DNA of 64,000 nucleotides from Thermodesulfobacteriota bacterium. GTDB taxonomy: Bacteria; Desulfobacterota_D; UBA1144; Nemesobacterales; UBA2774. Shown here piece after piece: positions 24,013-55,607 of the stretch; position 1 is the stretch's first letter; each line of letters begins with the position of its first letter. The stretch covers positions 1 to 64,000 of the forward strand of contig JBFMCV010000002.1 of the NCBI GenBank assembly GCA_040754335.1, written 5' to 3'. The notes beneath the pieces are model-generated. The model made no database searches. It had not been told where the DNA came from and was given only the letters and a program-made list of their open reading frames with translations. The position numbers and the translations under genes are program-made.

Positions 24013-24459
24013 GAGGGGCCGTGTTTTTTTCTGTCTTCGCGAGGGAGCGTAGCGACCGTGGCGATCTCGTTCCCTTATCTTGTCATTTCGAACGCATGCG
24101 AGAAATCTATTGTTTATCTTGTATTTCCCTCCTTTACTAAAGGAGGGCCAGGGTGGATTTTAAACAAAATTAAAATTATCTTTTTCTTCTTTGTCTTGAT
24201 ACAAAGAAGCAAAAATCACACACGTAGTGTGTCTTACGGTCGTTACGTAGCTACAGGTGCATATCCGACAATCGTAGGAATTGAGCGGTAGCGGAGGTTA
24301 AGGCAGAATCTCGGCTAAAATATCTTATTACGGCTAAAATCGATAGATTCCTCCTGCAATCCTTCGGGAGTGATACCCGTTCAACCCTTCGACAAGCTCA
24401 GGACGAACGGGTTTGGCTTCATTGCCGGTTTAAGCAGTGAAGATACATGAGGATCGCAT
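24013..24459. repeat. Repeat mosaic upstream of the L-2-hydroxyglutarate oxidase gene
   Basis: In order: half a family A element (about 24,032-24,070), half a family B element (24,081-24,116), family G text (CTTTACTAAAGGAGGGCC), CTTGATACAAAGAAGCAAAA (near 24,190), a small palindrome ACACACGTAGTGTGT at about 24,219-24,233, and a family F/D element from 24,373 that continues across the start codon of the next gene. No gene seen. Confidence 0.7.
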
Positions 24460-49090: not shown

Positions 49091-52000
49091 ATGAGCACCG
49101 TTCGTGATATTTCAAAACAGCCGTTCAAGGTAATCTCGGCGCCGAGGAACCTCCAGATAAGGAACAGCCTCCTGAGCGAGTATGCCGACATATATACTCC
49201 TCAGGTCCTGGAAGCACTCAAGGCGCTTTCCGTATTCAATAAAGACCAGAAGCTGCTGATGGAAAAGCGGTACGCGAGGCGCGCGCAGCGGAACCGCAAC
49301 AGGGAGAGGATAAGGTTCCTCAACCCGAACGATTTCATACCCCGCACCAATATAAAGGTACAGGACGCGCGGGACGGCAAGTTCGTGGGCTCCGAGATCC
49401 CTCATGACCTCCAGAGGCAGTGGATACAGGGCACGGGCCCCGCGGCCAAGCCGAACACTTCCCTCGACAAGAGCATCAGGAACGTAGCTTACGCTCTCCT
49501 TTCGGGCGCTGACGGCTGGATGTTCGACGGCGAGGACGCCCTCGGACAGATAAACACGATGTCGCTCGACAACCAGAGGAACCTCAAGCTCGCCATAAGG
49601 AAAGACCCGGTTTTCATGAACGTCGCCGAGCAGGTCTCGAGGGAGATGAACGACTGGGCGAAGGGGTTCTTCGGCCGCGAGATCATACTCGACTGGAGAA
49701 AGCAGCTCGACTTCACGACGAAGATCTTCCGCGCGAGGGGGCTGCACCTCGACGACAGGCACATAAGGGACGAGAACGGTCTCATGCTTTCGGCCTCGAT
49801 CGTCGATGTAGTGCTTTACATTGTGAACAACTATCAGGAGCTCGATAAATCCGGCTCGTCGCTCGTTCTATACCTCCCGAAGATACAGACGGCCGAAGAG
49901 GCCGCATTCTGGAACGAGCTCTTGTCCGCGCTGGAGGACCACCTGAACCTTCCGCTCGGCGCGATAAAGGTATACGTGCTCGTCGAGCAGCTGGAGGCCA
50001 CCTTCCAGCTGATGGAGATACGCGCGGCGCTCGGCAGGCATTTCGTCGGGTTCAACACGGGCAGGTGGGATTACATAAACAGCGTGTCCGACGCGATGGC
50101 GTGGGACCAGTCTTTCATAAACCCGAACATAGAATCGATAACGATGACTTACGGCTACATGAGGAATTACGAAGACCGCGTGCGCAGGGCCGTGAACACT
50201 CCGGGCGTCAACCATAACTACGCCCTCTGGCAGGGCGGAATGGAGCCCAACATCCCCGTAGGCTCCGACAAGGGTGTAAAAGAGGGGATGAAGAAGGCGG
50301 TCGAGGGGGCAAAGAGGGAGCAGCAGGCCGGGGCCAGCGGCAAGTGGGTCGCTCACTGGAAGATGGTGCACATAGTAAGGCCGGTATGGGAAGAAGCCGG
50401 GGAAGAGAACCAGATGGGCAAGAAGTTCCCGCCCCTCACCTACACCGACGAAGACGCCGACGGTCTCACTCTACTCGAGCCGGCGCCGAGGACCGTAAGG
50501 GGCGCAAGGAACCTCATATCCGTCGCATTACAATACGGCAACGCCTTCGGACAGGGCTTCCAGGCGGCGGCGCTCAAGCCCGCCGACTTCTTCGGCAACG
50601 ACGACATACTCTATTTAATGGAAGACATGGCCACGGGCGAGATACGCCTCAGCATACTCTGGGAATGGGTGGACAAGGGCGCGGTCCTCACCGAGGACGA
50701 CAAGGAGACCGGGGTCAAGGCAGGGGACATATTCACCTCGGATTTATTCGAGAGGCTCCTCGCCGAGGAATACGACAAGCTGCTCAAGGCGAAGGACAAG
50801 GACGTACACGACGACTCCAAGCCCACGACGCTCCCGATAGCTAGGGAGATAGTGGAGACATACGTGCTCGACAACATCAAGACGCCCTGGTACATCGACC
50901 TCCTCAACATAAACCTCAACAACCACGACCTCTCTACGGCCAAGATCAGGATAAAGCAGTACATGGACGCCTTCAAAAAGGACGGCACGCGTATCACGGA
51001 GAACCTCGACTTCCTCCCTGAAACGAGGATAGACACGACTCTCGAGGACGAGCTCGATTCGTTCGAGAGGGAAGTGAGGGAGATGAAGGAGTGGTTCGCG
51101 CAGCCGAGGTTCAAGGGCATAAGGCGTCTTTACTCGGCCCGCCAGGTGGTACAGCAGGCGGGGACGATAGAAAACGACTACACGGTCGCGAGGAGATACT
51201 CCGAGGAATTCTACAACAGGCTCCGGGAGCTCTTCGCCAAGGGTGAGCAGATAACGACTTTCGGCCCCTACTCGCCGGGACAGATAGTCACGATGAAGCG
51301 CATAGGGATAGAAGGAATATATCTCGGCGGCTGGGCGACGTCCGCCAAAGGGTCGCTGTCTGAAGACCCGGGCCCGGACCTCGCGAGCTATCCGCTGAGC
51401 CAGGTGCCGGATGAGGCTGCCGGGCTAGTGCGCGCTCTCCTCACCGCCGACAGGAACCAGAAGTTCATGAGGTCCCGCATGTCGGAGAAGGAGAGGAAGG
51501 CGACGCCGAAGGTCGATTACAGGCCTTTCATTATCGCCGACGCCGACACGGGACACGGAGGCGACGCCCACGTGAGGAACCTCATCAAGAGATTCGTCGA
51601 GGCGGGCGTTACCGGTTATCACATCGAAGACCAGAAGCCGGGCACGAAGAAATGCGGACACCAGGGCGGCAAGGTGCTCGTTCCGGTTGACGAGCAGATA
51701 AAGAGGCTGAATGCCGCAAGGTTCCAGCTCGATATAATGAAAGTGCCGGGGATCATCGTCGCCCGCACGGACGCCGAGGCCGCAAACCTCCTCGACGGAA
51801 GGGGAGACGAGCGCGACCAGCCGTTCATTCTCGGAGCGACGAACACGACCGTTCCCGGATACAAGAACTGCTACCTCGCTATACTCAAGAGGTTCTTCGA
51901 CAAGGGCATCACCGACGTTAACGGGTTCATGATGTACAAGATATCGGACGCCGAATACGACGAGGTATACGAGTGGTTCGACAAGGTCGGCCTCACCCCT

Positions 52001-53341
52001 ATCATAGACAAGAGCATACAGGCATTGAAGGAAGGAAAAGAAAGGAGCATAACGAAGCCGCTCGAGAACGCGGCCAGCAAGTTCGTCGAGACCTGGGAAG
52101 TGGAGTCGGGCCTCATGACCTACGCCCAGGCCGTGGCCGAGCAGATGGAGTTCGCGATAGAAGAGGGCAGGAACCTCGGGATGACAATAGACGAATGGTT
52201 CGAATTCGCGAATCACTCTTCCTACCAGCACGCGAGGGACAGGGCCAGGCTGATGGGAATAGAAGCCGCGTGGGACGCGGAGCTCTCGAGGACTCCCGAG
52301 GGATACTATCAGGTCAAGGGCGGAATAGAGTACGCCATAGCGAAATCGCTCGCGGTCGCTCCTTACGCAGACCTTATATGGATGGAAACCAAGACCGCAA
52401 ACTACGAAGAAGCGAAGGAGTTCGCCGAGGCTATACACGCCGAGTTCCCGGACAAGATGCTCGCGTACAACCTGTCGCCGTCCTTCAACTGGGACACGAC
52501 CGGGATGAGCGAGGACGAGATGAGGAACTTCCCGAAAGAGATCGGGAAGCTCGGCTACGTGTTCGACTTCATCACCTACGGCGGGCACCAGATAGACGGT
52601 CTCGCGGCGGAAGAGTTCGCGACGGCTCTCAAGCAGGACGGGATGCTCGCGCTCGCGAGGCTCCAGAGGAAGTTCAGGCTGCTTGATTCGCCCTACAGGA
52701 CTCCGCAGACGCTCGTCGGAGGGCCGAGACTCGACGGCGCGCTCGCCGCATCGTCGGGACGTACCGCTACTACCGTCGCCATGGGCAAGGGCTCGACACA
52801 GGTGCAGCACCTAGTCGAGACCGAAGTCCCGCCGAGGATACTCGAGGACTGGCTCGAGCTCTGGTCCGAGCACTACGGCATACCGGGCCGCCTGAGCGTC
52901 AAGCTGAGGCCCCACACGGCCGGCTCCGAGCTCCTCGAGCTTACGGTCAAGGACGAGGGCGGTAACAAAGTCGCCGACGTCATATTCGCCACGATACACG
53001 ACCGCTGGGGGAACAACTTCGTTTCCGTCAGGGACCAGAATACGTTCGAAGACAAGTTCCGGAAGAAGAGGCTCATGGCCCTCATACACATATTCCTGAT
53101 ACACAGGTATAAGGCCGTCTCCGTGCACTACGTGAGCCCGACCGAGGACAACCAGAAACAGGCCCAGGGTATGAAGGCTATGGGTATATACGACGAGGTC
53201 AACACCGAGATCGGGCACATCATAGTTGCGAGGGTCAATACGGAGAGAGTTAAGGAGCTGCTTGCCCCGGACCTCACCGAGCTCAAGAGTTTCATAGCGA
53301 AGAAATCGAAGCCGAAGGGCAAGAAAAAAGACAAGCAGTAA
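49091..53341 (+). CDS. Fused malate synthase / ICL2-type isocitrate lyase (bifunctional glyoxylate shunt enzyme)
   Basis: 1416-residue protein expected to cleave isocitrate to succinate and glyoxylate and condense glyoxylate with acetyl-CoA to malate. Residues about 1-650 are malate synthase A-like, with [10 protein letters not shown] (320-329). Residues about 655-1250 match the long isocitrate lyase 2 type: [26 protein letters not shown] (745-756), signature KKCGHQGGK (853-861, catalytic Cys855) and SPSFNW (1129-1134). About 1255-1395 correspond to the C-terminal domain of mycobacterial ICL2, a GNAT-like acetyl-CoA-responsive module there ([29 protein letters not shown]). A Lys-rich tail ends it. 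AAGGAG is six bases before the ATG; a strong terminator follows. Confidence 0.93.
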
Positions 53342-54731: not shown

Positions 54732-55061
54732 TCATTTGCCGGATGTAATATTTCCCTTTGCGTCTTCCTTCAGGCGGGCAGGAATGTCCATCCGCTCATG
54801 GAGTATGCTGATTATACCCAATACTCCTCCTGAAAGAACCCGGAAGAATATGAAGTGCCTCTCATAACGTATGTAGAAAATCTTTTCAAACCCCGTGCGT
54901 TCGAGCGTTCGCCAGAGCTTCTGATCCTTCTGGGCATTCGAAATCGCGTCGTGCATTCCGCGCATGTATTCTACAGCCTTCCGCTCTCCCCACTTCTCAA
55001 GTGTGTAATCCCATATCTCGTCCTGTCTCCTGTCCGCGGCGGGGAAAAAACGATACCGCAT
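54732..55061 (-). CDS. parE: RelE/ParE-family toxin
   Basis: 109-residue type II toxin. RYRFFPAADRRQDEIWDYTL, RKAVEYMRGMHDAISN, and the C-terminal YERHFIFFRV with GIISILHERMD match the ParE/RelE fold. ParE members poison DNA gyrase while RelE cleave mRNA; His at the C-terminal HERMD position fits ParE. The ATG overlaps the antitoxin stop by one base (TAATG), so the pair is coupled. Confidence 0.9.
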   Translation of the reverse strand: MRYRFFPAADRRQDEIWDYTLEKWGERKAVEYMRGMHDAISNAQKDQKLWRTLERTGFEKIFYIRYERHFIFFRVLSGGVLGIISILHERMDIPARLKEDAKGNITSGK

Positions 55062-55321
55062 TATGATTTCTGTTTACCGCGGTTTCTCGAGATCACGTCA
55101 TCGGCGCTTACCTCTACGAATTCGCTCTCCCCGGCGCTCATGCCGGGTTCGAGCTCGCCGCGGAGCCGCTGCCACCTGTGCTCTTCGAGACGCTCATAAT
55201 CCTGTCTTATGAGGGCCCGTATGTATTCGCTAACGGACTCGTACATGCCTTCGGGCCCCGTACGCTCCCTGACGAATTTGATCAGCTTTCCCGATATTCT
55301 CACGTTTACGCTTTCAGCCAT
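55061..55321 (-). CDS. parD: ParD/CopG-family antitoxin
   Basis: 86-residue antitoxin. The N-terminal ribbon-helix-helix (SVNVRISGKLIKFVRERTG, then YESVSEYIRALIRQDYE) should bind DNA, and the disordered C-terminal part (EFVEVSADDVISRNRGKQKS) would wrap the toxin. TAAGGGGG precedes the ATG. A strong promoter and an operator-like palindrome are just upstream, so autoregulation is expected. Confidence 0.9.
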   Translation of the reverse strand: MAESVNVRISGKLIKFVRERTGPEGMYESVSEYIRALIRQDYERLEEHRWQRLRGELEPGMSAGESEFVEVSADDVISRNRGKQKS

Positions 55322-55480: not shown

Positions 55481-55572
55481 AAAAAGAAAAAGAGGGAGCA
55501 CCCGTTACCGGAATGCGCCCTCTTTTCTTAAAGGAGGATGGAGGATAGATTTAAGTGCGTTACTTAACTTTC
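55481..55572 (-). ncRNA. Candidate small RNA with C/U-rich seed (about 92 nt)
   Basis: A good minus-strand promoter (55,579-55,607) faces an intrinsic terminator (stem about 55,486-55,529 with T-run complementary to 55,481-55,485), predicting a transcript of about 92 nt. It would start with a TTAAGT/ACTTAA hairpin, then an unpaired ATCTATCCTCCATCCTCCTT, then the terminator stem AAGAAAAGAGGG / CCCTCTTTTTCTT. The repeated CCTCC can pair with GGAGG ribosome-binding sites. No open frame fits. Could instead be a terminated leader of parDE. Confidence 0.5.
55486..55529 (-). terminator. Intrinsic terminator of the candidate small RNA
   Basis: On the minus strand AAGAAAAGAGGGCGCA pairs with TGCTCCCTCTTTTTCTT with one bulge, around CGGTAACGGG, ending in a T-run. 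It also has the right sequence to end plus-strand transcripts. Confidence 0.7.
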
Positions 55573-55578
55573 ATTATT

Positions 55579-55607
55579 AATATAAAGGATGGCTCTTAAT
55601 TTGTCAA
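55579..55607 (-). promoter_or_regulatory. Sigma-70-type promoter of the candidate small RNA
   Basis: Minus-strand TTGACA (55,602-55,607), 17-bp spacer, TATATT (55,579-55,584). No supported CDS starts downstream before the terminator at 55,529-55,481. Confidence 0.65.

Follow-up and report, generated by a model that had tools for sequence, protein, structure and literature searches.

A multicopy family of predicted anti-Shine-Dalgarno small RNAs in Dadabacteria with a promoter in common with type II secretion genes

On the minus strand of the window, that is, the whole stretch of 64,000 nucleotides analysed here, a promoter is followed only about 90 nt later by an intrinsic terminator. An earlier note, made from the letters of the window, had proposed that this interval encodes a small RNA (sRNA) able to mask Shine-Dalgarno (SD) sequences, raising the question of whether such an RNA is real, what it could pair with and under which control it might stand. 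Both landmarks were borne out: the TTGACA-N17-TATATT promoter matches the consensus at 11 of 12 positions and is conserved in the other copies described below, and a scan of the predicted transcript met stop codons in every frame and no start codon that could be used (Table 1). Our overall reading, to which we assign a probability of about 0.6, is that of a multicopy family of SD-masking sRNAs working without Hfq, co-expressed with type II secretion and damping SD-led translation.

Table 1. Parts of the predicted sRNA locus and its neighbours in the window
Feature	Position	Strand	Remark
-35 hexamer TTGACA	55602..55607	-	conserved across aligned copies
Operator 1, palindrome TTAAG-N7-CTTTA in the -35/-10 spacer	55583..55599	-	putative; sequence pattern
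-10 hexamer TATATT	55579..55584	-	spaced 17 nt from -35
Operator 2, palindrome TTAAG-N7-CTTAA, overlapping the first transcribed bases	55551..55567	-	putative; RNA helix not conserved
Predicted sRNA, lineage A copy, ~92 nt	55481..55572	-	start inferred from promoter
Anti-SD seed AUCCUCCAUCCUCCUUUAA (ATCCTCCATCCTCCTTTAA)	55528..55546	-	conservation; predicted unpaired
Intrinsic terminator hairpin and U tract, 3' end TTTTTCTTTTT	55481..55529	-	fold and covariation
RHH-like antitoxin	55061-55321	-	neighbour only, not part of sRNA element
ParE toxin	54732-55061	-	neighbour only, not part of sRNA element

Copies and distribution of the element

Starting from a 171-nt query, further copies were found in the own genome and in genomes of the same genus, the same family and other families, several per genome. 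In the own genome three strong copies were detected, namely the one in the window (C2), C3:478651-478745 and C5:329684-329778. Deduplication left about 64 distinct copies, which share either the promoter-seed-terminator block or the seed and terminator; the 60 with the standard promoter were aligned, and the block reads TTGACA - TWAAG-N7-CTTTA - 15 bp - TTAAr-N7-CTTAA - TCATCCTCCATCCTCCTTTAA - terminator. A covariance model (R1), which matches the window at 55571-55479 with 72.9 bits, detected the element in 44 of 44 genomes of the order, across all seven families (Dadabacteria), with one to eight copies per genome. Conservation in relatives, set beforehand as the test that could refute the proposed sRNA, was therefore found. 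With the same model, streamlined 1-Mb class-mates (f8) gave essentially no match, marginal at best. It is this conservation across copies, rather than local motif scores, that excludes a chance pattern for the element in the window. A second, weak match of the model in the window (24086-24177, minus strand; 18.9 bits, E 0.028) is probably due to chance.

The exact seed 20-mer occurs at 49 loci across 84,980 species. Nearly all of these are in bins of Dadabacteria lineage, labelled either Dadabacteria or Desulfobacterota/Deltaproteobacteria, the contigs under the latter labels matching the same relatives; the 20-mer was not found in viral contigs. A 4-kb Candidatus Brocadia contig (PHFX01000095.1, L073) carries a full lineage-B copy together with its neighbour gene and is probably a misbinned Dadabacteria contig, while a seed match in Rossellomorea is the ribosome-binding site of an unrelated gene and probably a chance event. 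In Rfam 15 no family was found at gathering or relaxed cut-offs, the best chance match being RsaE with 20 bits versus the 79 needed, and the literature searched appears to contain no description of a small RNA from Dadabacteria. Judged by sequence, the element is one copy of a previously undescribed sRNA family confined to one bacterial phylum, and we have hardly any doubt that this predicted family is real and conserved. It has the sequence features of anti-SD sRNAs, namely its own promoter, an intrinsic terminator, no open reading frame and an accessible CCUCC-type seed. An Hfq gene was found in 0 of 58 genomes, with positive controls detected, which speaks against assignment to the Hfq-dependent class.

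Seven loci (L059, L161, L166, L167, L062, L064 and L092) have seed and terminator without the operator promoter, the last three with an ordinary TTGACT promoter in its place, and are apparently the same kind of RNA under different control.

As for the surroundings in the window, the upstream neighbour is a GH63/MGH1-like hydrolase gene, while a ParE toxin and antitoxin and then a UPF0176 rhodanese gene lie downstream. In this genome and in G003, the ParE/RHH pair (54732-55321) separates the sRNA from the rhodanese gene, which is conserved; since the pair is absent in G001, it looks like a recent insertion. Farther away, positions 49091-53341 (plus strand) encode a 1416-aa protein in which Pfam recognises the TIM barrel and C-terminal domain of malate synthase together with isocitrate lyase; by this domain content it is a fused glyoxylate-bypass enzyme.

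The seed and the predicted RNA fold

Conservation among the aligned copies is highest in the seed, which is nearly invariant, both CCUCC cores included. It has CCUCCUUU in common with the 3' end of the 16S rRNA gene of its own genome (GGATCACCTCCTTTTTCA), and it is complementary to GGAGG-7 nt-AUG, an ideal initiation region. Genus g10 retains CAUCCUUCAUCCUCCUUUUU as its seed. In the divergent family f5 (two genomes), promoter and terminator are kept and the seed is swapped for a CCUCC repeat, CUCCUCCUCCUG, in the forms CUCCUCCUCCUGCUU and CUUCCUCCUCCUCCUGAUUU. The anti-SD property thus outlasts the sequence change, which speaks for selection acting on this property and lends support to the original idea of a candidate sRNA with an anti-SD seed. 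On these grounds, pairing with SD sequences is likely to be the mode of action of the sRNA.

The 94-nt RNA has a predicted folding energy of -27 kcal/mol, which corresponds to z = -3.5 relative to shuffled sequences; in this fold the CCUCC stretch is unpaired. The mean predicted unpaired probability of the seed was 0.86 in the window and averaged 0.90 across the family. The only structure predicted by RNAalifold was the terminator stem, with 12 pairs and compensatory changes in 11 of the 12; by pair count in the alignment, 93.4% of the cells of this helix are paired. For the whole tested structure, the covariation score was 0.476, versus 0.226 in shuffled and at most 0.145 in slid controls. 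A role of the element as DNA only would leave the terminator covariation unexplained.

Of the RNA layout first drawn for this locus, the exposed AUCCUCCAUCCUCC stretch and the terminator stem were confirmed, while the 5' hairpin was not conserved as an RNA helix. This hairpin is predicted for the RNA in the window, yet 41/60 copies break its pair 10/18 and 31/60 its pair 11/17 (numbering of alignment A1); loss of the inner pairs in a large share or even the majority of copies rules it out as a conserved RNA structure. A DNA palindrome is the better reading, namely the second of two putative operators, and the outer TTAA/TTAA of the hairpin persists because it belongs to one of two similar 17-bp palindromes. 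The alignment revealed no conserved helix around the seed, a finding that sets the family apart from the cuckoo/CcsR sRNAs, which carry their anti-SD motifs in hairpin loops.

Several known systems resemble the predicted family in part. The tandem sibling sRNAs NmsR of Neisseria meningitidis have two predicted anti-SD motifs, down-regulate their targets by an antisense mechanism, act on TCA-cycle mRNAs and are under RelA control (PMC5362039); the Dadabacteria RNAs are likewise anti-SD siblings with predicted antisense action, but differ by their secretion-linked dual-operator promoter, by the lack of a detected Hfq gene and by the absence of an Rfam relation. The cuckoo/CcsR and SmelA075-type sRNAs of Alphaproteobacteria also occur in several copies with repeated CCUCC anti-SD motifs, there as CCUCCUCCC in hairpin loops (PMC3927594, PMC10253847); RNAs with such loops occur in Rhizobiales (PMC3927594), and an RpoH promoter drives joint transcription of the CcsRs and a DUF1127 protein (PMC10253847). 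In our family, by contrast, the seed is predicted to be unstructured, and every copy comes with a promoter and a terminator of its own. In Listeria monocytogenes, the five homologous LhrC1-5 copies are controlled by one regulator, LisRK, and carry UCCC motifs, located in loops, in a single-stranded stretch and in the terminator, with an envelope-protein target and no requirement for Hfq (PMC4132741). Homologous copies under one regulator (here putative) and C-rich SD-blocking sites are common to both; the promoter in common with a secretion system distinguishes the Dadabacteria RNAs from LhrC. Finally, sX13 of Xanthomonas represses mRNAs with G-rich starts through C-rich motifs in three hairpin loops, independently of Hfq, and promotes type III secretion through HrpX (PMC3771888); C-rich motifs and a secretion-system link recur here, but the Dadabacteria sRNA has its promoter in common with the secretion genes.

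A promoter in common with type II secretion genes

The earlier note said nothing on operators, copy number, a promoter in common with type II secretion or the lack of conservation of the 5' hairpin as an RNA feature. The two 17-bp palindromes lie at a nearly fixed distance of 32 bp start-to-start, the first of them between -35 and -10, where it begins 2 nt after TTGACA alike in the sRNA, gspC and gspL promoters. From their pattern, they are likely the dual operator of one putative dimeric regulator. A search of the order for the composite promoter returned 89 matches in 30 genomes, the reversed-pattern control returning 0. Matches outside the sRNAs fell on gspC in 21 genomes and on gspL in 2; nearly all the remaining ones are accompanied by the seed, and two lie at contig ends. 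No other conserved gene with this promoter was found in the order-wide search.

The gspC start codon follows operator 2 by 0-4 nt, without an SD between. In the own genome, the gspC product is recognised as Pfam T2SSC, and the gene heads a gspC-D-E-F..J-K operon (assigned from gene order and N-termini, with Pfam for C and D), while gspL-M-N bears a similar operator. A strict search of seven genomes for perfect operator palindromes returned the sRNAs, gspL and two other sites in G034. In that genome a further gene (L413:1500-1984, G034:C47; protein start MDVKAKSVKQRIFGLGRF) lies behind a dual-operator promoter and may belong to the regulon there as an additional member. Upstream of gspC, no regulator gene was evident in the loci inspected by eye from N-termini.

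The coupling to secretion is not universal, since in genus g10 operator 1 is kept at the sRNA and lost at gspC, and in f5 a family search over the phylum detected no GspC. In the same search, GspC was missing from the class-mates without the sRNA, and this joint absence may be one evolutionary event. All together, these promoter sequences make it very likely that the sRNA is co-regulated with type II secretion.

Proposed mode of action and its alternatives

The mechanism that we infer from these conserved features would run as follows, from transcription to direction of regulation and physiological role. Each trans-acting sRNA of about 90 nt would be made from its own sigma-70-type promoter, with a putative dimeric regulator acting on the two palindromic operators, and ended by the intrinsic terminator. 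As a mimic of the 16S rRNA 3' tail, its unstructured seed would pair with extended SDs (AAAGGAGG), and in the best cases with the start codon as well, so that ribosomes would be kept from entering with no need for Hfq. The putative regulator would also drive gspC-K and gspLMN, whose mRNAs are proposed to be exempt from the sRNA because they start without an SD.

The leaders of gspC and gspL (n=23) have no SD (mean +2.2 kcal/mol), and their predicted duplex with the seed averages -2.2 kcal/mol, compared with -10.8 as the median over 163 genes; in the own genome, gspC pairs more weakly than 97% of genes and gspL is average. Export-type N-termini were seen in 34/55 genes of the AAAGGAGG-N7-ATG type with an unrelated spacer, and export signals in 10/12 proteins whose start region matches the full seed with at most two mismatches. 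As these fractions do not differ (p = 0.2), the extended SD itself appears to be the mark of exported genes, and the seed-complementary spacer was rejected as an export marker beyond it. Among 99 heuristic genes at loci not chosen for their SD, export-type N-termini track strong SDs (p = 4e-4); with starts chosen blind to the SD, the association had p = 0.005 and the rank correlation was not significant, all these values depending on heuristic gene starts and a hydrophobicity rule. In the own genome and the family loci, the longest SDs (AAAGGAGG) head mostly predicted signal-peptide or lipoprotein genes. With the strongest SDs heading mostly exported proteins, the synthesis of the latter is proposed to be held back when the secretion machine is induced; such selective damping is possible, though we lean somewhat against it.

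A 5' leader attenuator, halting transcription at the terminator and reading into the next gene under some condition, would fit the syntenic lineages A, B and C, in which the downstream gene has the same orientation and mostly lies at a distance of 45-200 nt. It would also fit the finding that promoters dedicated to the downstream genes do not, overall, rise above shuffles (8.4 versus 8.2). It is disfavoured because 18/62 copies face a convergent gene and because tandem copies exist (G007:C32 and G014:C203), each with its own promoter and terminator. Moreover, the downstream genes are unrelated between lineages while the seed is invariant, the family alignment has no conserved alternative helix, and the next operon in the window has its own TTGATG-N17-TATAAT; we consider an attenuator quite improbable.

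Two other readings keep the sRNA and change its reach. If the full-length seed, including the complement of AUG, selected a small target set instead of masking SDs broadly, its match to an ideal initiation region would be expected, as would candidates such as a PilQ-like mRNA in HR37, a PBP-like lipoprotein in the own genome, the perfect 21-nt match in HR37 (L066), which lies at the start of a gene, and the gene-start matches with at most two mismatches in other genomes. These matches are scattered and not orthologous between genera, no single mRNA target with near-full complementarity being conserved across the family, and the invariance of both CCUCC cores, together with the changed seed of f5, argues for recognition of the SD as such; we consider a narrow target set unlikely. 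Damping of all SD-led mRNAs, or of the ribosome itself, under a stress sensed by the regulator, with an incidental link to secretion, would agree with the CCUCCUUU held in common with 16S rRNA and with up to eight copies per genome, but the promoter is common to the gsp genes and to no other conserved gene found, and SD strength is itself skewed to exported proteins, so that we give this general role a similarly small chance.

In conclusion, our data favour an SD-masking sRNA family coupled to type II secretion. In its most far-reaching and more tentative form, one regulator would form a two-tier regulon, turning on both the SD-less gsp operons and the sRNAs that silence mRNAs with extended SDs, mainly of exported proteins. 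If this were true, mRNAs of one functional class would be addressed by the presence or strength of their SD, and the family would offer a clear example of a setting where SD strength could label a class for regulation. The skew of the longest SDs could also bear more generally on the translation of exported proteins.
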